Source: Phycisphaerales bacterium (GTDB lineage: Bacteria; Planctomycetota; Phycisphaerae; Phycisphaerales; SM1A02). From it: DNA of 64,000 bases. The stretch covers positions 186,001 through 250,000 of the forward strand of contig JAQWNP010000001.1 of the NCBI GenBank assembly GCA_029268515.1, in the 5' to 3' direction. The notes beneath the pieces are model-generated. The model had not been told where the DNA came from. It was given only the letters and a program-made list of their open reading frames with translations, and made no database searches. Below are positions 23,403 through 57,192 of the stretch, piece after piece; position 1 is the first letter of the stretch, and each line of letters begins with the position of its first letter. The position numbers and the translations under genes were made by a program.

Positions 23403-24023
23403 ATGCAAGCTCCATATACATCCATCCTCCTATTCGGCCCTCCCGGCGTTGGCAAGGGTACCCAAGGTGCCATGCTGTCATCGATTCCAGGCTTCTATCA
23501 CCTGGGTACCGGTGACATCTTTCGAGCGCTCGATCGGAATAGTGAGTTAGGCCAAGCATTCTTGAAATACTCAACCAAAGGGCTCTTGGTTCCAGATGAG
23601 TTGACGATTGAGGTATGGCACAATCATGTTGCCAAGATGATCAAGTGTAAGGCTTATGATCCAAAACGAGATGTGCTTCTTTTAGACGGCATCCCTCGGA
23701 GCAAACCTCAAGCATTGGCTATGGATCAATATCTTGATCTTCTTGGTGTTGTCCACCTCGTCTGCAAAGATATCGATGAAATGGTGCGCCGCCTAAGACA
23801 TCGAGCTGAAGTCCAGAACCGTCCTGATGATGCAGATGACAAAGTGATACGTCGTCGTTTTGATGTCTACAAAGACGAGACTTCCCCAGTTCTGGCTCAC
23901 TATCACAAAGACCTGATCTTTAATATTGATGCAATCGGCAGCCCGGCAGCCGTCCTACTCAAGATCCTTGAGTTTGTTGTGCCTGCAACCGAATCCCGTC
24001 TGGGTAATCCTCTCTCTCAATGA
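23403..24023 (+). CDS. adk: Adenylate kinase (short form)
   Basis: A 206-residue nucleoside monophosphate kinase. The P-loop GPPGVGKGTQ lies near residue 12, followed by FYHLGTGDIFRAL and LLLDGIPRSKPQA, which replaces the common DGFPR. The LID is short, with HRAEVQNRPDDADDKVIRRR matching the R-x-DD pattern. It interconverts AMP, ADP and ATP. Its stop overlaps the start of an ABC ATPase gene (ATGA at 24020-24023). The Ile in DGIPR and the short LID set it apart slightly from the standard enzyme, so another NMP kinase specificity is possible; it may not be the only adk in the genome. Confidence 0.88.
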   Translation: MQAPYTSILLFGPPGVGKGTQGAMLSSIPGFYHLGTGDIFRALDRNSELGQAFLKYSTKGLLVPDELTIEVWHNHVAKMIKCKAYDPKRDVLLLDGIPRSKPQALAMDQYLDLLGVVHLVCKDIDEMVRRLRHRAEVQNRPDDADDKVIRRRFDVYKDETSPVLAHYHKDLIFNIDAIGSPAAVLLKILEFVVPATESRLGNPLSQ

Positions 24024-24982
24024 TCGAAGAATTTGTTGGCATGAATGACAAAAACCGTCCAGTACTTTCTGTGGTTGATGTCACCAAGCGTTTTCGAAAA
24101 AATACCGCGCTTGATAAAGCAACGTTAAGCATTGCTGCCGGTGAATTTGTTGGACTACTCGGACCAAATGGTGCTGGAAAGACCACTTTGATCCGCGCTA
24201 TTACGGGACATGTGTTAGTAAACAGTGGCTCGATACATCTCTTTGGTGAGCCCATTCTGGGCCGAACACGCAGCCGAATCATCACCGACTGCCTTGGTAC
24301 CGTTCCGCAAGATCTTGCCCTCTATCCCAATCTCACCGCGCGCGAGAATTTGTCTGTGTTTGGATCTTTGTATGGTGTGACAGGAAAGACTGCCAAAGAA
24401 CGGAGTAAGTGGGCACTGAATTGGGCTGATTTAGAAGACCGTGCTGATGAACCTATCAACAATTTCTCCACTGGCATGAAACGTCGATTAAATATTGCCT
24501 GTGGCATCCTCCATGAACCAGCATTCATACTTCTGGATGAACCAACTGTCGGCGTCGATCCACAAGCCCGCGAATGCATTTGGCAGATGTTACGCACATT
24601 GCAACAAAACGGTGCCACCCTTCTTTTGACGACACATCAATTAGATGAGGCAGAAACACTTTGCGATCGAATTATTATTATTGATGACGGCAAGCCTATC
24701 GCGCAAGGTTCATTTGATGAGTTGGTAGCTGAGACCATCGGTTCGGATCGCGTTATCGTTATAGAATGCGCACTTGATAATAAATATGCCCAATCGCTTC
24801 CAGAGCACTGGTCCTATGACGGGACTGTCATTCGCGTAAAAGTAAAAGATGTATGGAAAGAATTGCCAGGAATCATTGAAGTGCTTCAAGATATCAGCAC
24901 TCCAATTGGCAACATCCATATCAAGCTTCCGAGTTTGCATGATGTATTCCTACATCTCACCGGACGGGAGTTACGCGAGTGA
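24020..24982 (+). CDS. ABC transporter ATP-binding protein (ABC-2 exporter type)
   Basis: A 320-residue ATPase with intact Walker A (GPNGAGKTTL), Q-loop (VPQDLALYPNLTARENL), signature (FSTGMKRRLNIA) and Walker B (FILLDEPTVGVDP) motifs, followed by the H-loop TTHQLDEAE. The C-terminal 80 residues form an extra domain as in drug or polysaccharide exporter ATPases of the DrrA/CcmA class. The next gene overlaps by four bases (GTGA) and encodes the matching permease. Substrate unknown; location 25 kb from the degenerate ABC protein makes a shared transporter unlikely but not excluded. Confidence 0.95.
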   Translation: MIEEFVGMNDKNRPVLSVVDVTKRFRKNTALDKATLSIAAGEFVGLLGPNGAGKTTLIRAITGHVLVNSGSIHLFGEPILGRTRSRIITDCLGTVPQDLALYPNLTARENLSVFGSLYGVTGKTAKERSKWALNWADLEDRADEPINNFSTGMKRRLNIACGILHEPAFILLDEPTVGVDPQARECIWQMLRTLQQNGATLLLTTHQLDEAETLCDRIIIIDDGKPIAQGSFDELVAETIGSDRVIVIECALDNKYAQSLPEHWSYDGTVIRVKVKDVWKELPGIIEVLQDISTPIGNIHIKLPSLHDVFLHLTGRELRE

Positions 24983-34141: not shown

Positions 34142-35644
34142 TCATGAATCCTTACCGCGGTTTTCAGGCACGCGAGCTATTATTCTTGTTTCACGTGGAA
34201 TCGAATCATTTCCCGTTGCAACGGTACTGATCTCAATTGAATGACATCCAAGTCTTTCAAGCGTCCGCTGAGCTCGACTAGGAGACAAGTCGTTGTAAGA
34301 ACAGCCGTGTTCTTCATTCCAAGAGTATTGATGATCTGTTAATTCGGGGAACCAGCCACGATAGCACGTCACATAGATCCAACCTTGCGACCAGCGCACC
34401 ATTGCTGCCAGATACGCATCCATATCATAACTATTGTCGATGGTTCCCTGTGAAAAGACCAGATCGAACTTTTCATCAGCATCCTCAACAATAAAATCAC
34501 AAGATCGATAATGATGTTTCTTATTAGGACGGTTTTCCTGACACCATGCAATAGCAGGATGAGCAAGATCAAAACCGACATAGCGGCGATCCGCCAAAGC
34601 ATCGCAATAACCAACACCCAAACCACATCCAAAATCTGCAACCGTTTGCAACTCAGAATGACCATCTATAAATGACAATAAGTCTTGATGAACGGCTTTT
34701 CGAGACTCATACATCCACGTATACCACTCAAGACCACCATCATGCTCTTTCCAAAACTGACCATAGTTTTTGGGCTTCCATCTACTGCGAGCACAATTGC
34801 TGTATTTAAGATCGATCATCATCTGACCTGCATGCCGATCAAACGCATCCCGCATTTCCCCTGACCACCACGGCCAGGAAGCCGCTGGCCTTGGATTTGG
34901 CGTCTGCCGATATGCGAGAGAGTTAACCCGCTGATCCATAATTTCTTGTACTTGATCCCGACCAGGGGAGTCGAGACCAAGCCATTCATACATACCTTCA
35001 ATTCCCTCTACTCCATCCCGAGCGAGATCGATGCAACGGACTCGATCACCAGTCACTGATTCCAAGCCTTTAAGGTAAACAGAATTACAGGCACTCCAAT
35101 ACCAAGCACACATGTGACTTCGCGGCATTTTTTCCCATAACTCGTACACTGGATCCCCTGGCTGTGGCCGGTTACGAGCGTAATCAGAACTATCGTCACT
35201 AATCAGCAAGTTCGCTGCCGAACTCACCGCTGCTGGCTCCAACGCTTCGGATTGCAAACCTTCCCGATAAATATTTCCAAACTTCGCGATGTGCCAATTC
35301 ATCATTGAAGTCACCACATCGCGACCATCCCGAGTCAACAGCACGAAACGACAGTTGCTTTCCTTTGCGAGCGCTGGAATAAACGGACCATAGGTCACAT
35401 TTTTTTCGCCATAATTTCCGTGTTCTGTTAACCCCTTCTTAAAACGGGGCACTAACACATCCCGCACCAATTTCATTTTATCTTTGTCACTAAGGCATCC
35501 ATCTAAAGCTGCTCTTGTTTCACGATTGAGATTGGGCATGGGCTCTGAAGCACAATGACCATTCACTGCAGTATCGAGCAATGTCGCCAAAGCTGTCGAG
35601 CCAGATCTTGCTGTACTAAGAATACAATAGGGAACGTTTGTCAT
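34142..35644 (-). CDS. Fusion of sulfotransferase and SAM methyltransferase domains
   Basis: About 500 residues from the ATG at 35644; a TTG at 35656 is possible. Residues about 1-290 are a PAPS-type sulfotransferase: YCILSTARSGSTALATLL is the 5' phosphosulfate loop and CRFVLLTRDGRDVVTSMM the 3'-phosphate motif. Residues about 310-500 are a class I methyltransferase: TVADFGCGLGVGYCDAL is motif I, RYVGFDLAHPAIAWC follows, and FDLVFSQGTIDNSYD is the later acidic strand. It may sulfate and methylate one glycan unit, or supply two separate activities. Part of the leftward operon between deacetylase-like genes. Confidence 0.88.
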   Translation of the reverse strand: MTNVPYCILSTARSGSTALATLLDTAVNGHCASEPMPNLNRETRAALDGCLSDKDKMKLVRDVLVPRFKKGLTEHGNYGEKNVTYGPFIPALAKESNCRFVLLTRDGRDVVTSMMNWHIAKFGNIYREGLQSEALEPAAVSSAANLLISDDSSDYARNRPQPGDPVYELWEKMPRSHMCAWYWSACNSVYLKGLESVTGDRVRCIDLARDGVEGIEGMYEWLGLDSPGRDQVQEIMDQRVNSLAYRQTPNPRPAASWPWWSGEMRDAFDRHAGQMMIDLKYSNCARSRWKPKNYGQFWKEHDGGLEWYTWMYESRKAVHQDLLSFIDGHSELQTVADFGCGLGVGYCDALADRRYVGFDLAHPAIAWCQENRPNKKHHYRSCDFIVEDADEKFDLVFSQGTIDNSYDMDAYLAAMVRWSQGWIYVTCYRGWFPELTDHQYSWNEEHGCSYNDLSPSRAQRTLERLGCHSIEISTVATGNDSIPRETRIIARVPENRGKDS

Positions 35645-35665
35645 CGTTTTACTCAACGTTCTAAT

Positions 35666-37906
35666 TTAGACTCCAGGCTTTAGCTGTGAAGTTCTTTTTA
35701 GTGTTGTGTTTGTTCGTTTGGCATGCTTACGCCAAGCATGGAACATTCTAAACTGCTCAGTATTAATCACTCGCTCTTGGTCATTAGATGGCTTCATGAG
35801 CACCACACTTACCGGAGCTGCTACTCGGGCAGGGCTCCAGACAGACAGATTCATTTCGTCAGAAAAACACAGCTGCATTTTATTTTGTGGGCATTTCCAT
35901 TTGGCCAGTGCCAAACTAAACCAGCTAATGTTATTTGCTTCTTCTGGCAGCGCCTTCAAGAATATATAGCCTGAGCAAGATGGTATTTTTCGATACATCG
36001 ATCGTGTCCCAATGAAGAGGCTGAATCCACTTTGAGATGCTATACGCACGCCCCATTTCAAACGATGATGCCACTTTTTATGCAAGTCAACACCTTCGAT
36101 ACCAATGTATTGAATCGCTCCGAGAATATTTGGCACCGATACAACTCTACTCTTCGTTTGGTTCGGCAGCTCAACTCGCTGCCGAACACCTCCACTCAAG
36201 ACTGTTACCAATTCTGTTTTGTCACCGATATGGCCACCAATGCGCAAGACGTCTGGAAGAGGACTACTATCGAGCGTCACCTTGGCTTTCTCTGCGCAAT
36301 CGACCGAAACGGTCAACCCGTAAAGTTCCGCGATATCCTCAGGCCCACGATTTCCAGTATGTGGATCATTCCAGGATTTAATATTGATCTCATTTGGGCT
36401 CACCCGATCAACATGATCCGCAATCTGGGTCATCATGTATAAATACTGATAGAAGCAAGACGCTCGCATTACACAAATGCGTTTTTCTTCTTGTACTTTT
36501 CCAGAGAAATTGAAAACTCGATCCTGCAAACCTTGTATTGCAGGAGAATCAAACTGCCTCTCTTTATGTTCCCACCTCTGATCTGCCCCAATATGGGTAT
36601 AGAACGGAATTGCTTGTGGAACACTATTCTTCGTCGCATTCAATACAGTCATAAGACGTGATGCAAATGTTGTAATGCGGCTTCTTTTATTGACGAATTG
36701 CCCCAAAGATAGATCGATGAGATTTTCATCCTGCACTGGCAGCACACGTCGGACAACTGTAATGGGCTTCCCATCTCTTGCGATCGTAGGACTGGTAACT
36801 TGCAGTGGGTGCAGTGAGGTCCTGGGCTCTCCCGAACTACCCGATGGATTAATAAAACGAACACCCAGCTTTCGAAAATGTTCGAGAATGTAAAGTGGCG
36901 AATCTGGATCATCTGGCAGAAGAGAAACATCAACATCATCATTGGCACTATCTAACCAGAATGGCCTAACACTTTCAGGCTTCAAGATATCGAGTACTGA
37001 TGCCAATTGTTCACGATGACGTTTCGCGGATGAATCTGTGAGAAAACCACTTGCGTTATGGTCAATAAACAGACGGCAAACAGGGCGACAAGTACTTCCC
37101 AGATGATCGAGCACTTGCTTCTCTAAATCACCATCAAACGCGAGCAAACAGAGATGCTCGATCGCATCGCGTGCCTCACGACTTTCGACACAGATATTAA
37201 CCCTGTTAATAATTGTCTTTCTAGCAATCAGGTGGCCGCTAGAAAGTGGCAAATGATACTTGTAACGCTTTCTACCATTGCTCAATTCCTCAATCCCACC
37301 AAAGTCCAGCTTGCGACTCCAACCACCCGCTGAGATAAAAGTCAGCTCAGGTGGAATGCCTGAATAGTCATCGAAGTCAAGAAACGCGGCACGATAGTCG
37401 CGGACAAATCGACGGCTCACCTTTTTTTTAACAATACGACCGAGCTTCTTATTAGCACGCTTTAGGGCAACCACACGACCATTGCATTCTTTCTTCCACT
37501 CAATGAGTGATTTGGGAATCATAATTCCATTTGGAGGTGGATTCCAGAGTCCATGAATGTGGTCAATCAACCCAAGCTCTGCTAACTGCGTCAACTCACG
37601 ACTATTTCTTGCCAAGTGATTACCATGGCCAAAACACGGCGAAAACAAACTGTTCGCCATGTTTATACCGGCATCAATTGGCAGTATTGAATCTCCGAAG
37701 TCAAGATTTAAGTCGTAGCAGAGGGTAGACAGTGCATGCCAAGTATTTCTTGGATATGAGCAATCGCAATCACTGATGATTGCAAAAATGTGCTGAAAGG
37801 GATAAGGAAGTAATCGAATTCCTTGCGACTTCAAACGAGCTTCAAGATCTGCCGCCTGCTGATCACTTAAGCCTGCGTCTCGATGAAATGGTCGCTCCAT
37901 AGTCAT
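35666..37906 (-). CDS. Large protein of a paired family (746 aa), NodB-like N-terminus, unknown function
   Basis: Not recognised as a named family. Residues about 30-200 look NodB-like: PYPFQHIFAIISDCDCSY has D-C-D at 46-48, LDFGDSILPI follows, and GLIDHIHGLWN could give metal-binding histidines. Farther on, RFINPSGSSGEP, FYTHIG, LQDRVFNFSGKVQEEKR and IKSWNDPHTG are shared with the 917-residue protein at 44270. No membrane helix or signal is clear. It lies between a sulfotransferase and the sulfotransferase-methyltransferase fusion in the leftward operon. A role as a large glycan-modifying enzyme is only a guess. Confidence 0.6.
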   Translation of the reverse strand: MTMERPFHRDAGLSDQQAADLEARLKSQGIRLLPYPFQHIFAIISDCDCSYPRNTWHALSTLCYDLNLDFGDSILPIDAGINMANSLFSPCFGHGNHLARNSRELTQLAELGLIDHIHGLWNPPPNGIMIPKSLIEWKKECNGRVVALKRANKKLGRIVKKKVSRRFVRDYRAAFLDFDDYSGIPPELTFISAGGWSRKLDFGGIEELSNGRKRYKYHLPLSSGHLIARKTIINRVNICVESREARDAIEHLCLLAFDGDLEKQVLDHLGSTCRPVCRLFIDHNASGFLTDSSAKRHREQLASVLDILKPESVRPFWLDSANDDVDVSLLPDDPDSPLYILEHFRKLGVRFINPSGSSGEPRTSLHPLQVTSPTIARDGKPITVVRRVLPVQDENLIDLSLGQFVNKRSRITTFASRLMTVLNATKNSVPQAIPFYTHIGADQRWEHKERQFDSPAIQGLQDRVFNFSGKVQEEKRICVMRASCFYQYLYMMTQIADHVDRVSPNEINIKSWNDPHTGNRGPEDIAELYGLTVSVDCAEKAKVTLDSSPLPDVLRIGGHIGDKTELVTVLSGGVRQRVELPNQTKSRVVSVPNILGAIQYIGIEGVDLHKKWHHRLKWGVRIASQSGFSLFIGTRSMYRKIPSCSGYIFLKALPEEANNISWFSLALAKWKCPQNKMQLCFSDEMNLSVWSPARVAAPVSVVLMKPSNDQERVINTEQFRMFHAWRKHAKRTNTTLKRTSQLKPGV

Positions 37907-37970: not shown

Positions 37971-38867
37971 TCACGCTTGTGTCCACGAGTCGAAGTCCCA
38001 ATCCATTAACTCACATAGACGCCTATTTGACGGATCATAAAAATTATCTAGTTTCTTTCGAACATCTACTGGCATAGCCAAAGCAGATATTTCTTTTGTG
38101 GCATGGTCATGAACAGAATTATGCTTTTTCCCCACTTGGCTGTAATCAATTCCATCCTGGCCTGGCTCAGGAAGATTGAGCCATGACATGACATCAGCAA
38201 GGGCTTTTAGTGGCTGATCTGCGAAATCTTGGTAGTTCGTGACAAATACTTGAGACCACCCGAACAGATGGATGTAGTTCATAAGCTGTGAATAGTACAT
38301 GCCACGGTCAAGATGCAATAAACGGGCATCAGAATACAACATATGTTGCCACCTCTGCCGATTACTGTCATCGAAGTTGTCTTTAACAGCGGCCAGTCTT
38401 TCATCTACCATAGACCCAAAGTCACTGAGAAGATCTGAGCCGCTATAGCTTTTCCGATATGAAGACCACAGACAATCTGTTGGGTTGCGTAATATGAACA
38501 GAATTCGAGCATCTGGAAGATGTTGTCGAATGTTGCAAGCAATGTGAGGGAACACCATAAAGTAAGGCCACTTCGTGCCGTAATACTTTGGCTTTGGTTT
38601 CATTAGCTTGGCTGGATTCCATCGCTCACGGCGCGGCCTATCGGCTGTCGTCATCTCTTCATAGACCTTGCCGCCATCTTCGAGCCCAATCATGCTGTAG
38701 GAGTTAAAGGGTGTCGCAAAAGGAAAGCCAACATACTCGCCTTTATAGGACAAGACTTCCTTGGAGTTACTCAGAAAGCAAATTTCTGGACTCAACATAA
38801 GAGCTTGCTTAAGAGAGCTCGTAGCCGACCGCTGGGCTCCGGCGATGATCAGATTCAGACGTGACAT
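37971..38867 (-). CDS. Sulfotransferase
   Basis: A 298-residue PAPS-dependent sulfotransferase. The N-terminal LIIAGAQRSATSSLKQAL is the phosphosulfate-binding loop and ARILFILRNPTDCLWSSYRKS the 3'-phosphate motif with its conserved Ser. NSKEVLSYKGEY after the loop is like heparan-type and bacterial glycan sulfotransferases, where a K-E-x-x-x-F/Y pattern occurs. It transfers sulfate from PAPS to a sugar hydroxyl or amine. GGAG is nine bases before the ATG. It heads the second leftward operon, divergent from the plus-strand sulfotransferase across 165 bases. Confidence 0.9.
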   Translation of the reverse strand: MSRLNLIIAGAQRSATSSLKQALMLSPEICFLSNSKEVLSYKGEYVGFPFATPFNSYSMIGLEDGGKVYEEMTTADRPRRERWNPAKLMKPKPKYYGTKWPYFMVFPHIACNIRQHLPDARILFILRNPTDCLWSSYRKSYSGSDLLSDFGSMVDERLAAVKDNFDDSNRQRWQHMLYSDARLLHLDRGMYYSQLMNYIHLFGWSQVFVTNYQDFADQPLKALADVMSWLNLPEPGQDGIDYSQVGKKHNSVHDHATKEISALAMPVDVRKKLDNFYDPSNRRLCELMDWDFDSWTQA

Positions 38868-39032: not shown

Positions 39033-40229
39033 ATGTCCGATCCCGTTACAGTCGTCATTGTAAACTCGCTCAGCTATACCGGTACGACTTGGCTTAATCT
39101 GGTGCTTGGATCCCACTCTAGAACCTTTACGATTGGGCCACCTGATCGCGTCTATGCCCTGCTTAAGCAGCAAACAGTTGAGCACCCTGTCAATGCCTGC
39201 CGTGTCCATGGCCCTACGTGTGAATTCTGGCAAGGCTTCTGCGAACAGTACGATTCTCGTGAGAACTACTTTGTTCAACTCGCTGATTACGCCAAGTGTG
39301 ATGTACTGGTTATCAATAATCCAATACCCAACGGCACCAGCCTAGAACTTGAGCATCCCTCAATTGTGGTCAAACCTATTCAGCTCATTCGCGATGGCCG
39401 AGCTGTCGCAGCAAGTTATAGGCGAAAGCACCCAAATGAGTCGTTTTTCGATGGCGTCAAGAACTGGCTATCAGCACCCCTCAATAGTTTCCCCTTCGAT
39501 AAAAATGACCCCGATCTTCTCTGCCTTCGATATGAAGATGTGCTTCAAAATCAGCACACCGCAATTGAGCAAATTGGCCAATTTGTGGGTGTCGATTATG
39601 ACGCGAAAGCTTTACGTTTCTGGGAACACCCACATCACATCACAGCTGGAAATTCTGGCACCATCATGATGATTAAATTGGCACAAGAACTCCGGGTTCC
39701 AGCAAACGAGAATCGCGAATATTATGAAGAGCAGCTGAAAACACTGCAAGACAATCCAAGCCACACATTTAATGACAAACGTTGGACTAGTGAGCTCTCA
39801 ACCAGAGACCGCTTTGCATTTGATTACTTTTGCGGCAAAGCAAACGCCCAGTTTGGCTATGACAGAGATTCGTTCACCACTGACGAACACCGAGAGTTCA
39901 CTAATGAACTACAACAAGTCATTCCGCCACCAGCGACAACTGCTATCAACACCTCACCTGAACAAGAAACATTTGTTGCCCCACCACCCGAAGAATCAGA
40001 GGCGACTCCAGCACCTGAGTTTACACTGTTGCCTCCACCATATGAGCCAGCGGCGTCGCCTCCACTACGACAGCAATTGTTGCCTTCATACTGGTTACAA
40101 AACGGAATAGCGATCACGTCTACTCAAGCCCGCAAACTTAGTTTTGCTATTACCATTTGCCTCGTTGTAGCCATATTAGTCATCATCACCTTGGCAATTT
40201 TACTCGGCGCCTCATCTTCTATTGGGTAA
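39033..40229 (+). CDS. C-terminally anchored sulfotransferase-like protein
   Basis: A 398-residue protein. Residues about 1-270 are sulfotransferase-like: VIVNSLSYTGTTWLNLVLGSH is the phosphosulfate loop and IQLIRDGRAVAASYRRKHP the 3'-phosphate motif; CLRYEDVL and FVGVDYDAKALRFWE follow as in family members. Residues about 290-355 form a Pro/Glu/Ala-rich linker (PPPEESEATPAPE and more). The last 40 residues hold one membrane helix (LSFAITICLVVAILVIITLAILL). It thus appears tail-anchored with the enzyme in the cytoplasm, the side where PAPS is available. The next gene begins four bases after its stop. Confidence 0.85.
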   Translation: MSDPVTVVIVNSLSYTGTTWLNLVLGSHSRTFTIGPPDRVYALLKQQTVEHPVNACRVHGPTCEFWQGFCEQYDSRENYFVQLADYAKCDVLVINNPIPNGTSLELEHPSIVVKPIQLIRDGRAVAASYRRKHPNESFFDGVKNWLSAPLNSFPFDKNDPDLLCLRYEDVLQNQHTAIEQIGQFVGVDYDAKALRFWEHPHHITAGNSGTIMMIKLAQELRVPANENREYYEEQLKTLQDNPSHTFNDKRWTSELSTRDRFAFDYFCGKANAQFGYDRDSFTTDEHREFTNELQQVIPPPATTAINTSPEQETFVAPPPEESEATPAPEFTLLPPPYEPAASPPLRQQLLPSYWLQNGIAITSTQARKLSFAITICLVVAILVIITLAILLGASSSIG

Positions 40230-42275: not shown

Positions 42276-44273
42276 CTAACGAGAGCGTACTTGTGGCGAT
42301 TGCTTGAGCTCTTCATAGAGTTCGAGTGCCGCCAAGCGGTGCGCATTCACTGTCCAAGTGCCATCTTCGTGATGAATTGGGCACTCCGCCTCCGCCTCAA
42401 ATCTTTGATAGGGACTGATGAGTGGAATACTCAATCGCCCAGCAATTTCACGCCATCTTTCAACAACAATATTTGCCTGCTTATATGCTTCCACGCTTGA
42501 ATGGGTCGCTGACAGAGCGCCCAGATGCTCTCCCGCCTCCGTCACCATAAGAAATAACTGAGAATCACGGGGCTGGATTGAATCATTAATGAAATGCAGA
42601 ATTGAACTCAGCCCGATCATTTTCTGAGATTCCACTTCCGTTAACTCTTTGCAAAATAATGTGCGTTGAAAAGACGATTCATCTTCAGGACCGCTTTTAC
42701 TTGGATTTTGCCGGTGCTTTTTCCACTTCGAACTTGCAGCCTGTACTTCAACACGCTCTCCGGCCCATTTTAGATACGAGCCAGGAGGATGTTCTGGAGA
42801 GAATCCCGTGCGCTTACTCCAATATGCTGACTCGCTCCAGGCCAGCTCTTGTGACGTTACACCAAGCACAACAATCGTCGGCTCAATTCGTTCTTGCATG
42901 ATCTTAAGCCAATGCCACAGACGCGAAATGCTCATTTCAGAGAACGCGCACTTCACACACATGGTGCTTTCATCGATCTCCTCACAAAAACGCTGCTCCA
43001 ACAATCGATGGCTCTGTGAATGGGACGCGACTGCTAATGAATCGAGCCCTCCGCCATCAAGAAACAAAATCCGGTTTCGACACTTACTTCGCTGACCTGT
43101 TAACACTCCTTCAGCGTCAAGCATGCCGAGCTCGTTCACAAATGAAACGTTGTGGTAAATCGCTTTGTCTTTATCTGGTCCAATTGCTGAAACAGAAGAA
43201 CCTGGAACCAGTGTTTCCCAACCTAATTTCTGTCCCACAGACACTTGCACATGATGTCTCGCTGAGTCAGGTGGATCAACAGCACTTGTACGACCACCGT
43301 AATAACACGGGTGAATCGTCATCACAATGCAAGCAGGTGCCTCAAGATGCCTAATATCTCTGACCATTTCATCCTGAGTACAGAATGGTGGACGGCCCAA
43401 CTCCAACCCTTTTTTAGCACGTCTATCATATGCGCGCCATCGCCAACCATCGACGGTACGTGTAGCGCCATACTCCACGTTAATTTCTTTTCGTCTTCTA
43501 AAAATGTCATTGCCTTCGTAGGTCAGACCTAACTCGGCCTCGTCCACAACACGCAGCAGCGCCAGCGTACCATTGTGCTCTAAGACGTCGGGAGGGGCGT
43601 CGGGATCATAGGCAACCTTCGCTTCATTCCGGAATCGGCCTCTAAACAACTCATAGTTTTCGGCTCCAAAAGCGGCTTTGGATCCATGAGCAACCGTACC
43701 CGTGATCCTCAACCCAATGCTCCGCAGCCATTGCACCTCTTCGATAAGTGCTGCGGCACCATCAGCTCCATCACTTTGATATACCGTAATACCATCGGCA
43801 TGCAGTCCCACTTCATGTCCCAGTGACTCTATCTCTTTATAGACAGCGCCCATAGCTTCATGCCTTCGATAACGCCCAAATCGCCTTTGCATGTAATAGC
43901 CTGCGGTATGAAGTAAATAGTGCGAGGTCGGAACACACAATTCATTTTCAATACGAGCCATCTGGTGTGCTGCAACAATATCACCATCAATGTCGTGGCG
44001 TATCGCGAGACGAATTTTATCTTGACCATCTGGCTGCCGACATAACTCTTCAAGCGTCACAAACTCAATGCCAATATCTTTCAGCTGACGAAGAAGCTGC
44101 TCGTAATAAAACATGGGGTAAGCGCACGCTTTATCTGGCTCCTTTGCACTAAGCCGAGCGCCGTAACCACTATACATATCCTTATTGCACTGGTGAAACA
44201 CGCTCTTAACTGACACTCGACTCTTCGTGACGCGATAGTCAGAAAACTGGGGATGCTCATTTTGATTGCTCAC
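42276..44273 (-). CDS. RHDVD-type deacetylase-like / SGNH-like fusion protein 2
   Basis: A 665-residue paralogue of the 40233-42254 protein with the same two-part plan. NodB-like motifs: LAIRHDIDGD, TSHYLLHTAGYYMQ and LGHEVGLHADG. SGNH-like part: RILFLDGGGLDSLAV, IVVLGVTSQEL and TWTVNAHRLAALELY. The first SGNH block is different again (DGGGLDS) and block V has no normal D-x-x-H. Both N-termini share YSGYGARL or FQGYGADY after a cysteine/asparagine-rich start. Its ATG overlaps the stop of the 917-residue protein by four bases, so it is the last gene of the first leftward operon. Confidence 0.75.
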   Translation of the reverse strand: MSNQNEHPQFSDYRVTKSRVSVKSVFHQCNKDMYSGYGARLSAKEPDKACAYPMFYYEQLLRQLKDIGIEFVTLEELCRQPDGQDKIRLAIRHDIDGDIVAAHQMARIENELCVPTSHYLLHTAGYYMQRRFGRYRRHEAMGAVYKEIESLGHEVGLHADGITVYQSDGADGAAALIEEVQWLRSIGLRITGTVAHGSKAAFGAENYELFRGRFRNEAKVAYDPDAPPDVLEHNGTLALLRVVDEAELGLTYEGNDIFRRRKEINVEYGATRTVDGWRWRAYDRRAKKGLELGRPPFCTQDEMVRDIRHLEAPACIVMTIHPCYYGGRTSAVDPPDSARHHVQVSVGQKLGWETLVPGSSVSAIGPDKDKAIYHNVSFVNELGMLDAEGVLTGQRSKCRNRILFLDGGGLDSLAVASHSQSHRLLEQRFCEEIDESTMCVKCAFSEMSISRLWHWLKIMQERIEPTIVVLGVTSQELAWSESAYWSKRTGFSPEHPPGSYLKWAGERVEVQAASSKWKKHRQNPSKSGPEDESSFQRTLFCKELTEVESQKMIGLSSILHFINDSIQPRDSQLFLMVTEAGEHLGALSATHSSVEAYKQANIVVERWREIAGRLSIPLISPYQRFEAEAECPIHHEDGTWTVNAHRLAALELYEELKQSPQVRSR

Positions 44274-47023
44274 AATTCCGACTTTCGTATAACCACTTCT
44301 AAACTATCGCCATGAACTGCAATCAGCGGCCCATTACTCGGGTCGAAACGTTTACCATCCGATTCAGCATAAAGTTCCACGATTTCATCACGAGGAAGAC
44401 CAGTGAAAGCGAAGAATCCGGAACCATCAAAGAACGCATCATCACGAACAATACGCTCTCCATCTGGTCCATTATAACTTAGCACTAATCTCAACTCCGA
44501 AAAGGCCCCTTCAATTCGGCCACCAAACACACAAGTCGTCGGCACAGCAGGCCTCAGTGAGCCAGACCGAAGAAACTCAACAGCATCTAAATCAACTTCA
44601 CATGCTGTATCACTCTCTAGAATAAAACTCATCGATGCAATAGGCGAGACAGGCAAAGGTCCACCTGGCACCGATCCACTTCGCCACTTGAGATCCACCA
44701 GCGGAATGACGCGCCGTTCCCATTCCCCAGACTCGCATTGTGATGTGAGATAAGAGGCGTTGACATCTGCCACTGATTGATGAGTGACACTGTCCCCAAA
44801 ATAAAATCGACCGCCATCTTTTGTCTCAATAAGAACCCCACAACGCGTCTGAGATGCCTGCCGCCTGACTGAATATGCAAAGTGCTGGCAACCAGCTGGA
44901 TCGATATCTTGTGGGAACCAGTTGATTCTCCCTGATCCAGGCTTCGATAATTCAACATGAGCATATCCAGAACCTCTTGCTGCATCAGTCTTGTCTGTCA
45001 GCCACTGAACCGCAACACACTCTTCCTGGCTTAACATCAACTCATTGGCAAAAGGCACCTCATCGAGAAGTACATGCGAAACATGCCCCCCAACAATTGT
45101 CACAGATTGACGCAACTCACCATCAGCTGGATTACGCACGAGGTTTTCTATTGGTTTATTATCTAAACAGACCTGTGTTTTGGAATTGTCATCAACGTAA
45201 AAGGTAATTCCATACAGATCTTCTACACTTATTGGCATGGTCTTGCCTGTGTGTTTATTTAGCCACGACTTAATTTGTATCGTGTCGCCACCAATTCGGG
45301 ATACATGTTTTGGAAGCACCTGAGCGATGAGCGAGTATTGATACAATCGAGAGGCTGAAACAAAGCCAAGCCGCTTATTTTCGGGAACCGAACCTGAAAT
45401 ATTCATCACACGATCTTGCAGCGCACTCATGACTGAATCATCGAAGTAAGGCTCCTGTGGGTTTCGCGTATTACCTAAATGGGTATAAAACGGCCACGCC
45501 TGATCAGTCTCTTGGGCTGAACGCTCAAGCAATCTTCGCATTCGCTCTGAAAACGTGTCCGTGCCCATATTATTTTCAAGCTTTTTGTCTAACACTGTGT
45601 CATTGGGCAACTCCGGAGCCATGCGCCTTGCACCAAATAAACGAGTTCTATCTCGACCTTGTGTCAGAGGCGTGATCTCAAATATATGAGCTCGCTCACC
45701 AGGCTCTCCGGACTGACCCGATGGGTTAATAAACTTAATGCCAAATGTACGAACTAAGTAATGAAGAAGATATGCAATGGAATCAGGGTGGTCTCCAAGT
45801 GCTGAAAATTTTAGATCCTCTTTACAGCCACTGATATAGAGCGACGGGAGTGGTGATTGCCCATATCGGGATGACACCGCCTCGTGAATTTCTCTCTCTA
45901 CTCTTGTGTTAACGATGTACTTTGACGCATGGTCTGTAACGAGATTCGTTCCAACATTCCATTCTGTACGAAGTGACTCAAGAAGGACGTGGCTTTTCAA
46001 TGCATCTGTATTAAAAAGATAGAGCGCTTTTACTTCAGTAGCTGGCTTTGCCGCAGAATCACGAACTATTATTCGTTCAATAGAAGAAAGAAATAAATTG
46101 TGCTCGCGACTTCGATCAAGTGGAACATCAAAATAGGCCACTTTCCAGCGAGAGCGGCCTATTTTATACTGCTCTCTTTGCTTGCTATTTGAACGTTGAT
46201 AGGCCAGCTCTGTTCCATCTGGCCTGACAACAACCAGTGTGGCACTATCGGATAGCTCAAGACCTTTTGTACAGACAGCAACTGTACACACTGGCACCCG
46301 AAATGACTTGAACTCTAACTGTCCAAACCGCGATCTTTCTAACTCTGCTGGAACCGCAATACACCACTCGCCTACACCGGGCGATGACACATCGTTCAAC
46401 ACCATTACACGTGCACCAAAGGCTGATAGCGAATGAAAATGATCGAGGTTACCCCGATGAAATTCACGAACTAACTCAATAAAACCGACTTTGCGATCGT
46501 CATCGGCGTGCGGGTACGAATGAGAAATAGGCGCACACCCATCACAATCGAAAAATGCCAGCGGCTCTGTTCGCACGCGTCGCGAAGCACGCTGATGTAA
46601 TCGAAACGAGTCTCCAAAATCAAGGCCATGCCGACGAATGAGCTGAGTGTGATACGCATTTACATCAAATGGTTTTGCCGCATCCAAATCACTAACTAAA
46701 CCAACAATGTTGGCGGCAGGATATGGGAGCAATCGCATGCCCGCGCTTTCTAAAGCAGCGAGACATTGCTTTTTCTTCTTTTGAGACAATACATTACGAA
46801 GGGACCACGGACAAGCATCGAGGCCTCGAAAGAGCCCCCAAGATCCAATGACTGGATGGCGAAGAAGGTAACGCATGCGATTAATGCGGTCATGACCTAT
46901 GGCCTGTAAGAGGCTTCGAAAAAGCCCCCAAGATCCAATGATTGGATGGCGTAGAAAATACCGCATTCGATTAACGCGGTCATAACCTATCGTCCGCCCA
47001 ACGAAATGCTTTAACCACTGCAT
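44270..47023 (-). CDS. Large protein of a paired family (917 aa) with N-terminal duplication, unknown function
   Basis: Not recognised as a named family. Residues 12-71 contain two copies of a 30-residue unit with NRMRYFLRHPIIGSWGLFR. The next 150 residues resemble the NodB-like start of the 746-residue protein: PYPAANIVGLVSDLDAAK (D112, D114), LDFGDSFRLH and GNLDHFHSLSAFG. The core shares INPSGQSGEP, FYTHLGN, LQDRVMNISGSVPENKR and IKSWLNKHTGK with that protein. The C-terminal 250 residues look beta-rich (carbohydrate-binding or Ig-like) with a final segment FFAFTGLPRDEIVELYAE like carboxypeptidase regulatory domains. Location unknown; no clear signal. Confidence 0.6.
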   Translation of the reverse strand: MQWLKHFVGRTIGYDRVNRMRYFLRHPIIGSWGLFRSLLQAIGHDRINRMRYLLRHPVIGSWGLFRGLDACPWSLRNVLSQKKKKQCLAALESAGMRLLPYPAANIVGLVSDLDAAKPFDVNAYHTQLIRRHGLDFGDSFRLHQRASRRVRTEPLAFFDCDGCAPISHSYPHADDDRKVGFIELVREFHRGNLDHFHSLSAFGARVMVLNDVSSPGVGEWCIAVPAELERSRFGQLEFKSFRVPVCTVAVCTKGLELSDSATLVVVRPDGTELAYQRSNSKQREQYKIGRSRWKVAYFDVPLDRSREHNLFLSSIERIIVRDSAAKPATEVKALYLFNTDALKSHVLLESLRTEWNVGTNLVTDHASKYIVNTRVEREIHEAVSSRYGQSPLPSLYISGCKEDLKFSALGDHPDSIAYLLHYLVRTFGIKFINPSGQSGEPGERAHIFEITPLTQGRDRTRLFGARRMAPELPNDTVLDKKLENNMGTDTFSERMRRLLERSAQETDQAWPFYTHLGNTRNPQEPYFDDSVMSALQDRVMNISGSVPENKRLGFVSASRLYQYSLIAQVLPKHVSRIGGDTIQIKSWLNKHTGKTMPISVEDLYGITFYVDDNSKTQVCLDNKPIENLVRNPADGELRQSVTIVGGHVSHVLLDEVPFANELMLSQEECVAVQWLTDKTDAARGSGYAHVELSKPGSGRINWFPQDIDPAGCQHFAYSVRRQASQTRCGVLIETKDGGRFYFGDSVTHQSVADVNASYLTSQCESGEWERRVIPLVDLKWRSGSVPGGPLPVSPIASMSFILESDTACEVDLDAVEFLRSGSLRPAVPTTCVFGGRIEGAFSELRLVLSYNGPDGERIVRDDAFFDGSGFFAFTGLPRDEIVELYAESDGKRFDPSNGPLIAVHGDSLEVVIRKSEL
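46821..46990 (-). repeat. 90-bp direct repeat coding for a duplicated 30-residue unit
   Basis: Copies at about 46821-46900 and 46911-46990 have a 90-base period. They encode IGYDRVNRMRYFLRHPIIG and IGHDRINRMRYLLRHPVIG, so third positions and a few residues have diverged. The duplication keeps frame at the start of the 917-residue protein. The basic and aromatic unit may bind membrane or nucleic acid or act as a docking segment. Confidence 0.9.
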
Positions 47024-47080: not shown

Positions 47081-48940
47081 CTAGAGATCATCATCATCAT
47101 CATCGCCAAGCAACTGCAAACTACTCGCCTCTAATTTCATCTCTTTTCGCTTAGCCGTACGCTCCTTCTTCATCGAATCCCACCAATGGTGGTCACCCAT
47201 ACCCAAGACATCACCATTGATGGCCCAGATAACTTGCTCTGCAGCAACCTCCTCTCCATGAGGATTAGATGATGACACGAACAAAACAATTTTTTGATCC
47301 AGAATAGCAATCAGCTTGTCAGCATACGCTGCGTCAATATCTTCAAAAATATCCCACTCAACCAACGCTACCGATCCAGGCGTGTTACTCAAGCCAAGGA
47401 CATAGACAGCCACTTTTAGATTGGGCGACAGTGTTGCCCAAACACTCTGAGTTAATACCGTGTCACGGCCTTGCGGAAGACCTTCAATCTCGTTCTTTAA
47501 ATCTGCGTTAGTAATGAACTCTTCAACTTCTTTTGTCACTTGGTCTGAAGGCGTCTTACTACCAGTCAAGATACCTTGAAGTGGCAAAATTGGGCATGCC
47601 TGACCACTAAAGATAAAGCTGCCTGTATACCAAACAAGTGGATCCACTTCTGTCGCTGCAACGAGTGACTCTGTGACCAATCCCAATGAAAGACGGGCAG
47701 GTGATATGTTGATTGAGAACAGCGTTGGTTTCCCAGGTCGCAAGGTGAGACAATCAACACCTCCATACTTTTTGGAACCCGGCAGCTTCATATCGATACT
47801 GCTCACCTCAGTAGAAGTGTATTGCTTGCCACTGAGCTGAACTAACGGAAAGTAAATGCTGCGATAAAAACGAATACGAGGATAAGAATCCGTCATACTT
47901 GCCACGACGGCAGCGAGGCTTGTGAATGATCGACCCAACTGAGCCAAGGCCAGAATGTAAATGAGTATGGAACCCCATGAATCGGTAGATTCAATCGCTG
48001 CAGAGCCCAGGATAATGAGAATCACAACAATCATTAGAGGGCGAAGTAATGATGTCACCAAAGCCGAACGCTGAGATGTGAGCTGACGCCTGTCATAATA
48101 ATCCCAGTATTCCTTAATGCGCTGATCTGTATAGTAACTCTCGGCAATTTCATTTTTCCTTAGATCTGGGGTTACACCCCACTCTTCACCGATTGCGATG
48201 TGCTGCTTGATAGCTCCAGCGATGCCTTCACGGGCCCGCCCGTAATACTCTGTTGATGCTTGCTGTGCACGACCACCTAAAAAGTAGAGCACTGGAGCGC
48301 TTACAAGGAATAACGGCAATACGTAGATCGTCGCTCTGACATCTAGGAAAAAAAGAATTCCGATATAGGCGAACGCATAAAAGATCAACTGGACCGATCC
48401 CATCATCGACTCGGCGGCTTTTGCCATCAAACGAGGATCGCCTTTAATGGTTCGGCCTAGATACTTCTTGTTGAATGTAGTCTGGCCAGGTATCGGATGC
48501 CATCCTGCTATCAGCTGGAGCATTCTTGAACCGGCCCGGTATTGATACGACCGGGCGATAGCCCTCGATTGAACGGCACAGAAATAGGCAGTAATCGCAC
48601 TGAAGATCTGTAGAACCAGAACAATGATTGCCACAACCCAAAGTGAACTAAGCTCCGCACCAAGGTTCCAGCCAACCCCAGGAACGATCCAGGCCTCACC
48701 AACCTCTAATTTCTGAATGTAAATCGACAGCAATACCAGTGTGCTCGACACCGCAATCGCGCCAAGAAAACTTAAGACGCCAACCATAGTAACGCGGTAC
48801 ATTTTGCCTAAGAATGCGTCTTTACTGAGCCATATATAGGCCTCAATAAAACGGCTAATCCGACCCATGACGTGCGACCACCAGGCTGAACCTGAAGGAG
48901 ATTCACTTGCGTGGTGCTGGGCTGTATTTGCAGTGGACAT
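47081..48940 (-). CDS. ABC-exporter-like protein with degenerate nucleotide-binding domain
   Basis: About 619 residues from the ATG at 48940 (AAGGT ahead); an ATG at 48961 is also possible. Numbering here is from the upstream ATG. Residues 55-360 have six helices and coupling segments as in type I ABC exporters. Residues 390-595 align in order with an ABC ATPase, including EGLPQGRDTV before the signature, but the Walker A region (414-432) has no GxxxxGKS/T, the signature reads LSPNL, Walker B reads VALVEWDIF and the H-loop reads SSSNP. ATP hydrolysis is therefore improbable. The C-terminus ends in seven acidic/Leu residues (GDDDDDDL). It sits in the glycan operon after asnB. Confidence 0.82.
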   Translation of the reverse strand: MSTANTAQHHASESPSGSAWWSHVMGRISRFIEAYIWLSKDAFLGKMYRVTMVGVLSFLGAIAVSSTLVLLSIYIQKLEVGEAWIVPGVGWNLGAELSSLWVVAIIVLVLQIFSAITAYFCAVQSRAIARSYQYRAGSRMLQLIAGWHPIPGQTTFNKKYLGRTIKGDPRLMAKAAESMMGSVQLIFYAFAYIGILFFLDVRATIYVLPLFLVSAPVLYFLGGRAQQASTEYYGRAREGIAGAIKQHIAIGEEWGVTPDLRKNEIAESYYTDQRIKEYWDYYDRRQLTSQRSALVTSLLRPLMIVVILIILGSAAIESTDSWGSILIYILALAQLGRSFTSLAAVVASMTDSYPRIRFYRSIYFPLVQLSGKQYTSTEVSSIDMKLPGSKKYGGVDCLTLRPGKPTLFSINISPARLSLGLVTESLVAATEVDPLVWYTGSFIFSGQACPILPLQGILTGSKTPSDQVTKEVEEFITNADLKNEIEGLPQGRDTVLTQSVWATLSPNLKVAVYVLGLSNTPGSVALVEWDIFEDIDAAYADKLIAILDQKIVLFVSSSNPHGEEVAAEQVIWAINGDVLGMGDHHWWDSMKKERTAKRKEMKLEASSLQLLGDDDDDDL

Positions 48941-49076
48941 GGTTACCTTGCGGCCCTTCATATTTTTGATGATTCACTCGCCCATTTCAGCAACAAGTCA
49001 AAGCCGGGTTCGACTACTACAACTAAACAATATCAGCTTCACACATTGTCTGGGTAACTACAATGTCTAGACCGCA

Positions 49077-51125
49077 TCAGACCTGCAAACTATCGACTCG
49101 AGTCTGACTCATCTCTACGATATCATTCGCTTCAGTATCTACAAAGTGTCGCTGAATCCACTCTATGCTAACCAAAGACCAAATCAGTAGGCGATGATTT
49201 CTCTTGCCATCAAAGTGTTCGTTTAAGCATGAGCGAACAAAATCTTGATCAAACCAGGGACGTTCCAGCGTACGTTGATCAAAGAGGATGGACTTAATGT
49301 AGTCCATAGATGGGCCTCGATACCAATTTTCATCTGGCGGAGAAAACCCTTGCTTACGCTGATAAAGAAACTCACTTGGCAGGAACTTTTCCATTGCCCT
49401 ACGAAGAACATACTTACCCTCTGATGAATCCATGAATTCACCGCTACGACTAGATTCTTCGAGTTCCGCCAAACGCAACTTTTGAGATGGACGAAGTCGC
49501 CAAGCGAGCGTGTTGAGCGCATTGTCGAGAAATGGCACCCGCGTCTCTAAACTATGTGCCATTGAGATATGATCATCGGTAATCAAGAGTCCGTGCAAAA
49601 ACGTCTTAAACTCAAAGTACAGTGCTCGGTGTAGCAAGTTTTCTGAATGACTGGCTTCTTGATCCCAAGCTGGCGCGCTCGCCATAACTTCGTCGAAACT
49701 ATGGCGAGGATCGCCCAAATGCCTTTGAAGATCAGATGAAAACAGACGCGACAACTCCGCTTGTGGCAAGAGTCGATGCCATGAGTCAAACACCGAATTA
49801 TCGAAGTCATCTATTGAACCACCACCAAATGCGGCGCGGTAACGCCATGGATAACCAGCGAATAATTCGTCTCCACCAGTCCCAGCAAGGCACACCTTTA
49901 CGAATTTACTTGCCAATTTTGCAACATACCAATTCTGATGACACATCCCAACACGTGGATCGTCCATATGCCATGTAATTTTATCCATGGCTGCAGGCAT
50001 ATCGCCTGCATGAAGAACAACGTCATAGTGCTCAGTTTGCAAAAGATATGACAAGCGCTCTGCCAACCGTCGCTCATCAAAGCCCTGCTCAATTCCATCG
50101 ACATTTGTCAAATCAAATCCGCCGGTGAAGGTGTGCAATCGACTGATCGATGTTCCCGCGACAGCCACAATGGAACCAGAGTCCATACCTCCTGATAAAT
50201 AGGACCCCACAGGCACATCACTAATTAATTGTCTTTGTACCGCACCACGGAAGCCCATAGAAACATCATTCACGACGGACTCTTGCCCCTGCGATTCTTT
50301 TCCAAATGCGGCAACTGCATCAATGTACTTTCTGGGCTCTCCTACAACACCATTACGAGGATCAACCCGAAGATGCTCACCAGGCATCAATAACTGGACG
50401 TTCTCCCAAATCGTCTGCCGCTTGTACACATTTTGAAATGTCATGTATTCAACAAGTGACGAAGCATTCAATGCAGGTTTCACAATACCACTTGCGAAAA
50501 TGGCCTTGATCTCACTCGCAAAGAGAAAGAATCCGTCTGAGATTGCGTAATAAACTGGTTTCACACCAAAACGATCGCGAACCAGATCAAGTCGATGCTC
50601 AACTGAGTCATATATTCCAAACGCAAACATGCCGTCAAGTTGCTCGAGACAAGGTGGGCCACACTCGTTCCAGAGCTGCAAGATGACCTCTGTATCGGTT
50701 CCCGTGCGGAATCGATGGTCACGCTGCTCAAGCTCATCACGAATTGCCTGAAAGTTGTACGCCTCTCCGTTATGCACAATCCAGTGACGGCGATCGGGTG
50801 TCGCCATTGGCTGATGCCCGTAGGCGCTGAGGTCAAGAATAGAAAGACGCCGATGACCAAGTGCTACCTGAAAATCACTTTCAGCCATTTCCCTACGCGA
50901 GTAAGAGCCACCAAAGACTGGAAGGTGCTCATTGAGGTGGGCAAATTTCTCATCTGTATAGGCCGTCGAAGTTGCACCGCGATGTTTGGTACCACGCCCT
51001 GGATCAAAAAACGCATAGCCCGCATCATCCGGGCCTCGGTGCGCAATGGTGTCACACATCCGTTTGATCCATACAGGATCAACGGGGCGGCCTGTCAAAC
51101 TAACGATACCGGCGATACCACACAT
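49077..51125 (-). CDS. asnB: AsnB-type glutamine-hydrolysing amidotransferase
   Basis: A 682-residue asparagine synthetase-type protein. Cys2 (MCGIAG) is the glutaminase nucleophile, with AHRGPDDAGY, LGHRRLSILD and VHNGEAYNF completing the N-terminal domain. An insertion of about 40 residues separates the first two blocks (residues 45-85). The synthetase part has SYLSGGMDSGSIVA, the ATP-pyrophosphate loop, and GTGGDELFAGYPWRYRA. In glycan loci such enzymes often amidate uronic acids rather than make asparagine. It begins three bases after the epimerase gene. Whether it makes asparagine or modifies a glycan is undecided; the context favours the latter. Confidence 0.9.
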   Translation of the reverse strand: MCGIAGIVSLTGRPVDPVWIKRMCDTIAHRGPDDAGYAFFDPGRGTKHRGATSTAYTDEKFAHLNEHLPVFGGSYSRREMAESDFQVALGHRRLSILDLSAYGHQPMATPDRRHWIVHNGEAYNFQAIRDELEQRDHRFRTGTDTEVILQLWNECGPPCLEQLDGMFAFGIYDSVEHRLDLVRDRFGVKPVYYAISDGFFLFASEIKAIFASGIVKPALNASSLVEYMTFQNVYKRQTIWENVQLLMPGEHLRVDPRNGVVGEPRKYIDAVAAFGKESQGQESVVNDVSMGFRGAVQRQLISDVPVGSYLSGGMDSGSIVAVAGTSISRLHTFTGGFDLTNVDGIEQGFDERRLAERLSYLLQTEHYDVVLHAGDMPAAMDKITWHMDDPRVGMCHQNWYVAKLASKFVKVCLAGTGGDELFAGYPWRYRAAFGGGSIDDFDNSVFDSWHRLLPQAELSRLFSSDLQRHLGDPRHSFDEVMASAPAWDQEASHSENLLHRALYFEFKTFLHGLLITDDHISMAHSLETRVPFLDNALNTLAWRLRPSQKLRLAELEESSRSGEFMDSSEGKYVLRRAMEKFLPSEFLYQRKQGFSPPDENWYRGPSMDYIKSILFDQRTLERPWFDQDFVRSCLNEHFDGKRNHRLLIWSLVSIEWIQRHFVDTEANDIVEMSQTRVDSLQV

Positions 51126-51128
51126 GCG

Positions 51129-52133
51129 TCAGGATGCCAGCACACCGCCAACGGCAGCCTGCTTCCCACGAAGATCCCCTTCATGACTGCGCCGCCATTC
51201 AATAAGGCTCTGCATGCCATGGTCCAAATCAATGGTCCAATTGAATCCAAGATCCTTGGAAGCCTTCTTGGGACAACCAATTCTGTTTTGCACGAACGTG
51301 AGTCCGGCATCTTCATATTGAATAGATAGATTGCTTTCTGTCAGCGACAGAAGCAATTCAGTAAGGTCTTTGATTGTGGTACCGATTCCACGACCCACGT
51401 TGTAGCATTCTCCAGAAGCATCTGCTTGCATGCCAAGCACATTGGAGCGAGCCACATCCGTGACGTGAATAAAGTCGTATTGCTGCGATCCATCACCGAA
51501 TACGATTGGACTTTGCCCATTCTCAATTCGATCAAGAATCTTGTGCATCACTGCAATATAAGCGCCCTTGTAATCCTGCCGTGGACCATAGACATTCATA
51601 TAACGCAAGCCAATCCAATCAAGGTTGTAGCGAGCACCAAGACTTTTGAAGAAGTGTTCACCAGCTATCTTTGAAGCGCCATAGAAGGTGAAGTTGTTGT
51701 ACGCATGCTCCTCAGTCATTGGTGTCTCAATCGCATCCCCATAAACCGAGGCAGATGATGAGTACACCACGCGTTCGACACCTGTTTCGATGGCAGCCAT
51801 CGCCACATTAAAGGTGCCTCGAACATTCACATCGAAGGCTGTATCGGGGTATTCATGACATTGCAGAATCCAGAGAGCCGCAAGGTGAAACACACCATGA
51901 CAACCTTCCATGGCCTTGCAGAGAATATCACGCTGAAGAATGTCTCCACCGTGAGGAAAGATGGAAACCCGTGGATCTTTTAGAGCCTCACGCAGGTTAT
52001 CAAGAGAGCCCCTAAAAAAATTATCATAAATGACAATCTCACCAACATCCGTCGCCAGAAGCTCATCTACGACATGACTTCCAATGAGGCCTGCACCACC
52101 AATAACGAGTACTTTTTTCCCACTCAATTCCAC
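51129..52133 (-). CDS. NAD-dependent nucleotide-sugar epimerase (extended SDR)
   Basis: A 334-residue UDP-sugar epimerase-type protein. GGAGLIGSHVVDELL at residue 12 binds NAD, YSSSASVYGD is the Ser segment, FYGASKIAGE the catalytic Tyr-x-x-x-Lys, and RYMNVYGPRQDYKGAY the sugar-binding block. The GTG start at 52133 is supported by AAGGAAG seven bases ahead. It is the first gene of the leftward glycan operon. Specificity (4-epimerase, 4,6-dehydratase or decarboxylase type) was not resolved; the galE gene at the right edge is a separate enzyme. Confidence 0.9.
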   Translation of the reverse strand: MELSGKKVLVIGGAGLIGSHVVDELLATDVGEIVIYDNFFRGSLDNLREALKDPRVSIFPHGGDILQRDILCKAMEGCHGVFHLAALWILQCHEYPDTAFDVNVRGTFNVAMAAIETGVERVVYSSSASVYGDAIETPMTEEHAYNNFTFYGASKIAGEHFFKSLGARYNLDWIGLRYMNVYGPRQDYKGAYIAVMHKILDRIENGQSPIVFGDGSQQYDFIHVTDVARSNVLGMQADASGECYNVGRGIGTTIKDLTELLLSLTESNLSIQYEDAGLTFVQNRIGCPKKASKDLGFNWTIDLDHGMQSLIEWRRSHEGDLRGKQAAVGGVLAS

Positions 52134-56427: not shown

Positions 56428-57192
56428 ATGGCATTGCTTGAAATCCGCAACCTGCACGCCACCGTTGAGGGCAAGGAAATCCTGCGTGGAATCGACCTCA
56501 CGGTCAATGCAGGTGAGGTCCACTCGATTATGGGCCCAAATGGCTCCGGCAAGAGCACGCTCGCACAGATACTCGCCGGACATGATGCTTATGAGGTCAC
56601 AGAGGGACAAGTTCTTTTCAACGGAGAGGACATACTTGAAGATGATCCCGATGTGAGAGCTCGCAAAGGCATCTTCCTTGCTTTCCAGTATCCAGTTGAG
56701 ATCCCTGGGGTCTCAACCAAGTACTTCCTCAAAGCAGCCATCAATGCCATTCGCAAGGAACGAGACTTAAGTGAACTTGATGCGATGGACTTCATGAAGC
56801 TGGTCAAAGAAAAGGCGACGATGGTTCATCTCGATCCATCATTGCTCGACCGAGCTGTCAATGAAGGCTTCTCTGGCGGCGAAAAGAAACGAAGTGAAAT
56901 TTTCCAGATGGCGATGCTTGACCCCACCCTCGCCGTTCTAGATGAGACCGACTCCGGACTGGACATCGATGCACTGCGAATTGTCGCTGATGGTGTCAAT
57001 GCACTACGCGATCAAGATCGCGGCTTTGTGGTCATCACTCACTACCAGAGATTACTGAATTATATCGTGCCTGATTATGTGCATGTGCTCATCAACGGGC
57101 GTATTGCCCGTTCGGGTGGCAAAGAACTTGCGCATGAACTCGAAGAGCGCGGTTATGCATGGATTCAGGAACCAACTTCAGCAACAGCCTGA
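56428..57192 (+). CDS. sufC: SufC ATPase
   Basis: A 254-residue ABC-type ATPase: Walker A MGPNGSGKSTL, Q-loop LAFQYPVEIPGV, signature FSGGEKKRSEI and Walker B AVLDETDSGLDID, where SufC typically has DETDSGLD. It powers the SufBCD complex. The gene follows sufB by 61 bases with AGGAAG ahead of the ATG. Confidence 0.97.
   Translation: MALLEIRNLHATVEGKEILRGIDLTVNAGEVHSIMGPNGSGKSTLAQILAGHDAYEVTEGQVLFNGEDILEDDPDVRARKGIFLAFQYPVEIPGVSTKYFLKAAINAIRKERDLSELDAMDFMKLVKEKATMVHLDPSLLDRAVNEGFSGGEKKRSEIFQMAMLDPTLAVLDETDSGLDIDALRIVADGVNALRDQDRGFVVITHYQRLLNYIVPDYVHVLINGRIARSGGKELAHELEERGYAWIQEPTSATA

Follow-up and report, generated by a model that had tools for sequence, protein, structure and literature searches.

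How does a protein persist that has the body of an ABC exporter but none of the residues with which exporters handle nucleotides, and what might it be doing? The question is raised by a 64,000-nucleotide stretch of a Phycisphaerales genome (hereinafter the window), which encodes a 626-residue protein that we term the pseudo-exporter. The initial annotation began its frame at an in-frame ATG at 48940, seven codons on from the first; this alternative start, giving 619 residues, may be the true one, since the 'MST' that follows it is also present in the orthologue from G001. The frame and its parts are as follows:

47081..48961, reverse strand: pseudo-ABC exporter frame, 626 aa, ATG at 48961, stop at 47081
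47828..48850, reverse strand: membrane half, residues 38-378, with one elbow helix and six long helices ordered as in exporters (AF2 secondary structure, hhalign)
47168..47788, reverse strand: pseudo-nucleotide-binding domain (pseudo-NBD), residues 392-598 (hhalign; Foldseek of the homologous domain)
47690..47713, reverse strand: lost Walker A site, residues 417-424 INISPARL, Lys position Arg423 (hhalign)
47453..47479, reverse strand: retained exporter stretch upstream of the signature, residues 495-503 LPQGRDTVL, LPxGLDTxL in the family (hhalign)
47417..47431, reverse strand: lost ABC signature, residues 511-515 LSPNL (hhalign)
47345..47371, reverse strand: altered Walker B, residues 531-539 VALVEWDIF (hhalign)
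47261..47275, reverse strand: lost H-loop, residues 563-567 SSSNP (hhalign)
47180..47203, reverse strand: family-conserved segment past the H-loop, residues 587-594 GMGDHHWW (family alignment)
47084..47107, reverse strand: acidic C-terminal tail, residues 619-626 GDDDDDDL (C-terminal composition)

Taken singly, the window protein betrays little of its ancestry: it has no Pfam match at E<=0.1, its PDB sequence search is without a match, and MsbA-type NCBIfam exporter models match it weakly and below threshold. With these single-sequence Pfam and PDB searches empty, the exporter signal emerges only with profiles. An hhalign comparison of 13 family members with 14 intact exporters from the same phylum returned a probability of 99.2 and an E-value of 7e-20 over 548 columns (residues 35-598), and a family profile of 16 rows recovered from PDB first BmrA (E 1e-16, profile positions 84-578) and then MsbA, IrtA, TAP1 and PglK. 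At the structural level, an AF2 model of the window protein built with three aligned homologues (pLDDT 53, pTM 0.46) displays six long helices and an elbow helix in the order of type IV exporters. A Foldseek search of PDB with this whole model has ABC transporters among all the matches listed (best E 6e-11, about 600 columns), with TM-scores of about 0.3 that make the domain arrangement in the model untrustworthy. Likewise, the C-terminal domain of the homologue L064, searched alone from a low-confidence model (pLDDT 54), has ABC NBDs among the matches listed, CFTR NBD2 being the best (E 2e-5). As the alignments held four sequences, the models are of low confidence and served for fold search only. 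By the profile comparisons and fold searches, both halves of the protein are genuinely homologous to ABC exporters, and the low-confidence model suggests the six-helix layout of the type IV homodimeric exporters BmrA, MsbA and PglK/WlaB. The intact-looking membrane half and full-length frame of the initial annotation are thereby upheld, and the ABC fold that it expected of the C-terminal part finds a counterpart in the NBD matches of the low-confidence L064 domain model.

The nucleotide-handling residues have fared differently. When mapped by hhalign, the Walker A motif GPNGSGKT falls on residues 417-424, its Lys on R423; LSGGQ corresponds to LSPNL at 511-515, the Walker B motif to residues 531-539 (VALVEWDIF), and the H-loop His to S564 in SSSNP. 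The signature, Walker B and H-loop had thus been correctly placed by the initial annotation, and its claim that every ABC motif is lost can be put more strongly: relatives with the same loss exist, no family member is an orthologue with intact motifs, and the sharing of these losses across the family excludes a chance event. The Walker A pattern GxxGxGK(S/T) is absent from the window protein and from every family member read, whereas neither LSGGQ nor the H-loop His, replaced by LSPNL and SSSNP in the window protein, is kept across the family. In place of the Walker B Asp and catalytic Glu the window protein has EW; among 30 members, 22 have an acidic residue at the first of these positions and seven a Glu at the second. 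Arg occupies the Walker A Lys position in 25 of 34 members, often within a motif near [LVI][DN]R[YLF][TS]L, Gly410 is kept in 33 of the 34-35 members with this region aligned, and past the H-loop G589 recurs in 30 and W593 in 26 of 32. Most members share, by this alignment, a derived pseudo-NBD. An ABC exporter by descent, the pseudo-exporter has none of the motifs for handling nucleotides, and is not to be classed as an ABC ATPase.

Homologues are present in 14 of 61 relatives, and a profile search covering genomes of Planctomycetota added further genera of the family, other families of the order and class, and genomes from other parts of the phylum. In total, homologues with an open frame occur in some 40 genomes of Planctomycetota, which range from Phycisphaerales to f69, a distant family resembling anammox bacteria. 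Weak profile matches (E 1e-5 to 1e-15) were left out of the membership, and most of those read are intact exporters. When 31 members were placed in one tree with 17 intact exporters, the latter all from Planctomycetota, a branch with 100/100 support split the two sets, as would be expected if the ATPase was lost a single time, which was probably the case.

The loss of motifs and the low similarity to known exporters are also what a pseudogene or a dying exporter might present. The dN/dS values between close orthologues (three from f69 and a second pair, used since dS is saturated or nearly so against the G001 orthologue) are 0.13-0.25 for the pseudo-NBD and 0.06-0.18 for the membrane half; purifying selection acts on each half, and is the stronger on the membrane half. 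These values, far below 1, together with the open frames in about 40 genomes, the well-supported clade and the recurring gene context described below, make neutral decay highly improbable, and we reject it on the low dN/dS in both halves and the single well-supported clade. The earlier suggestion of selection for another role gains support from the values for the pseudo-NBD.

The family further displays a graded erosion of the NBD. From about 590-670 residues, the members shorten through 526-555 (L032, L050) and 485 (L054) to 457 (L056 in G084; also G090) and 360 (L053), the last consisting of the membrane part and the acidic tail. In three lineages the NBD is almost gone while the six-helix part and the tail persist, and the forms of 457, 485 and 360 aa, with the NBD reduced or gone, still have membrane half and tail. 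The shortest forms have long branches in the tree, where their position is unsure. The tail is itself a constant: D or E makes up 33-67% of the last 15 residues in all 35 members with a readable C-terminus. In an earlier subset, 14 intact exporters had 0-13%, and not one of 220 neighboring frames reached 40%; by this composition, the tail is a family character rather than a habit of the genomes. Its final residue is hydrophobic in 16 of the 35. Within the membrane part, a position in TM6 that is Ala in intact exporters is Arg in 20 of 36 members, the window protein itself lacking this Arg, and no acidic residue conserved family-wide was seen in the membrane helices.

A first clue to function comes from the gene neighborhood. 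In the window, the pseudo-exporter belongs to an apparent operon with an epimerase, an amidotransferase, a 917-aa protein and a protein clustering with deacetylase-sulfotransferases, and two sulfotransferase genes lie beyond:

51129..52133, reverse strand: NAD-dependent sugar epimerase, upstream in the same apparent operon
49077..51125, reverse strand: asparagine-synthase-like amidotransferase, directly upstream; the same neighbor occurs in several relatives
44270..47023, reverse strand: 917-aa protein without a Pfam match, directly downstream, homologous to the product of window 35666-37906
42276..44273, reverse strand: protein in a similarity cluster with the relatives' deacetylase-sulfotransferases
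39033..40229, forward strand: sulfotransferase (PF00685, E 1.7e-6)
37971..38867, reverse strand: sulfotransferase (PF13469, E 2.1e-10)

The relatives' pseudo-exporters are likewise flanked by family 4 glycosyltransferases, sulfotransferases, amidotransferases, initiating sugar transferases and Wzy-type ligases, as well as by proteins that are deacetylase-like in their sequence features and have no Pfam match. Of 16 genomes, 10 have a PF13469 sulfotransferase within 3 kb of the pseudo-exporter, where uniform placement would give 0.32; the nominal P of 5e-14 overstates the real strength of this association, as the genomes are related. In G010 another sulfotransferase family is close by, and four of the 16 (G544, G368, G364 and G549) have no sulfotransferase close by. 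As an informal control, most intact exporters encoded in these genomes lie a long way from any sulfotransferase. The association is not exclusive to pseudo-exporters, as one intact exporter of the window's own genome (L066; G000 C12:54067-57970) has a sulfotransferase within 3 kb; it is possibly an active counterpart in another glycan locus. In one case the link is a natural fusion of 1311 aa in G013 (L022:8474-12409; also L062:7892-11827), in which a deacetylase-like and a sulfotransferase-like part precede a C-terminal pseudo-exporter. The first two parts resemble, in their order, heparan sulfate N-deacetylase/N-sulfotransferase. The link with glycan enzymes raised in the initial annotation is thus supported by the neighboring genes both in the window and in the relatives.

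Two further observations concern the same region of the window. The 917-aa protein (44270-47023) and its 746-aa homolog (35666-37906), both without a Pfam match, have relatives adjoining pseudo-exporters in L019, L032 and L084, and the frame at 34142-35656 combines a methyltransferase domain with a weak sulfotransferase match.

Could the pseudo-exporter pair with an intact exporter from another part of the genome, as the catalytically dead half of a heterodimer? Degenerate halves are common in heterodimeric exporters such as TM287/288, TmrAB and TAP, where catalytic residues were lost under continuing selection and one site remains active (PMC7756269), and intact exporters do occur elsewhere in each of the five genomes checked. 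However, the degenerate sites of those systems still bind ATP, whereas here the P-loop is gone with all the other motifs and some members have no NBD. Moreover, a search by the combined Walker A and signature patterns, of imperfect sensitivity, recognized no exporter-type ABC gene near the pseudo-exporter in about 40 loci, and thus lent no support to a nearby partner for the heterodimer contemplated in the initial annotation. The sole ABC gene it picked out (window 56428-57192) lies 7.5 kb away and has no predicted membrane segments. The limit on its sensitivity is evident from an ABC ATPase that it missed and Pfam detects at window 24020-24982, adjoining an ABC-2 permease 22 kb from the pseudo-exporter. 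On balance, we regard a heterodimer as improbable.

Wzx-type flippases (PF01943) were found in 11 of 12 genomes searched; in none of the 12 does the contig with the pseudo-exporter have one at a distance of 20 kb or less from it, although contig ends could hide one, and the window's own 99.5%-complete genome (G000) has no PF01943 match.

Against this background, we advance, as a leading but tentative proposal to which we give slightly less than even confidence, that these proteins are ATP-independent membrane modules of surface-glycan assembly. Briefly, a type IV exporter half-transporter would have lost its ATPase function, probably once, in an ancestor shared by the planctomycete lineages concerned, and the membrane part would have been retained for assembling surface glycans. 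The protein would form a homodimer enclosing the usual exporter cavity, through which an anionic, probably lipid-linked, glycan might pass or be flipped without ATP. The drive might be mass action or the proton motive force, as in SbmA; with no acid conserved in the membrane helices, any proton coupling would operate without a visible residue. The acidic cytoplasmic tail might dock glycan-modifying enzymes at the membrane, with the pseudo-NBD persisting as a remnant dimerization or docking domain that some lineages could shed. Several features favor passage or flipping: the membrane half is the more constrained, its six helices persist where the NBD is gone, no Wzx was found nearby, and many members have the TM6 Arg. 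A more specific version, which we consider rather doubtful, is that this as yet unnamed Planctomycetota family turned the exporter body into a flippase that needs no ATP, handles lipid-linked glycans of an anionic and often sulfated kind, and replaces Wzx in these loci.

The same loci can be read as those of a pure membrane scaffold, across which nothing passes and whose exporter fold anchors glycosyltransferases, deacetylase and sulfotransferases via the pseudo-NBD and acidic tail. The G013 fusion to a deacetylase-sulfotransferase, the direct adjacency of modification enzymes in many loci, a docking-like tail that often ends in a hydrophobic residue, and the lack of a visible coupling residue or conserved membrane acid speak for such a role and bring it close to passage or flipping in likelihood; yet the six-helix part is under the strongest constraint and is in no case reduced, for which a mere anchor would have no need. 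We thus see the pure scaffold as a real possibility, albeit one that we would not expect to prevail. Conduit and scaffold are not mutually exclusive. Both correspond to alternatives of the initial annotation, a non-pumping channel and a scaffold for glycan enzymes.

Among known systems, MsbA and PglK flip lipid-linked sugars, and the pseudo-exporters are homologous to them and to BmrA in membrane half and NBD; they differ in having no Walker A, signature or H-loop, in their acidic tail, and in the reduction or absence of the NBD in some lineages. SbmA/BacA (SLiPT) is an exporter fold that functions without ATPase or NBD and has a presumed origin in an ABC exporter (PMC13316013). SbmA, derived from YddA, imports peptides and has no NBD at all, whereas most pseudo-exporters retain a pseudo-NBD and reside in glycan loci. 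No Pfam SbmA/ABC_membrane_2 match at E<=0.1 was obtained for 16 members, of which five matched PF00664 and nothing else. Hence, if the pseudo-exporter transports, its working would by analogy be SbmA-like, without its being, by Pfam, a member of the SbmA family. A description of such a pseudo-exporter family was not found in the limited collection of literature searched.

The family would show in nature how the body of a pump can be put to new use without ATP. The best-documented case of an exporter fold that works after losing its ATPase completely is SbmA, which simply has no NBD. The pseudo-exporters offer a graded natural series, from a full-length pseudo-NBD through a shortened one to none, always with the acidic tail and in glycan loci, which makes the role of the NBD beyond hydrolysis directly testable.

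They also draw attention to a membrane component of surface-glycan loci in planctomycetes that has gone unstudied, also in the anammox-like f69, where 10 of 33 genomes carry a homologue. The hydrazine-synthase alpha domain PF18582 alone is no proof of anammox, as contig C1 of G253, from the window's class, has three matches to it, in frames of 841, 1093 and 977 aa. Of three f69 genomes tested, two have this domain in an 809-aa frame, which fits the hydrazine synthase alpha of Kuenenia-type anammox bacteria, and f69 is likely to consist of anammox bacteria.
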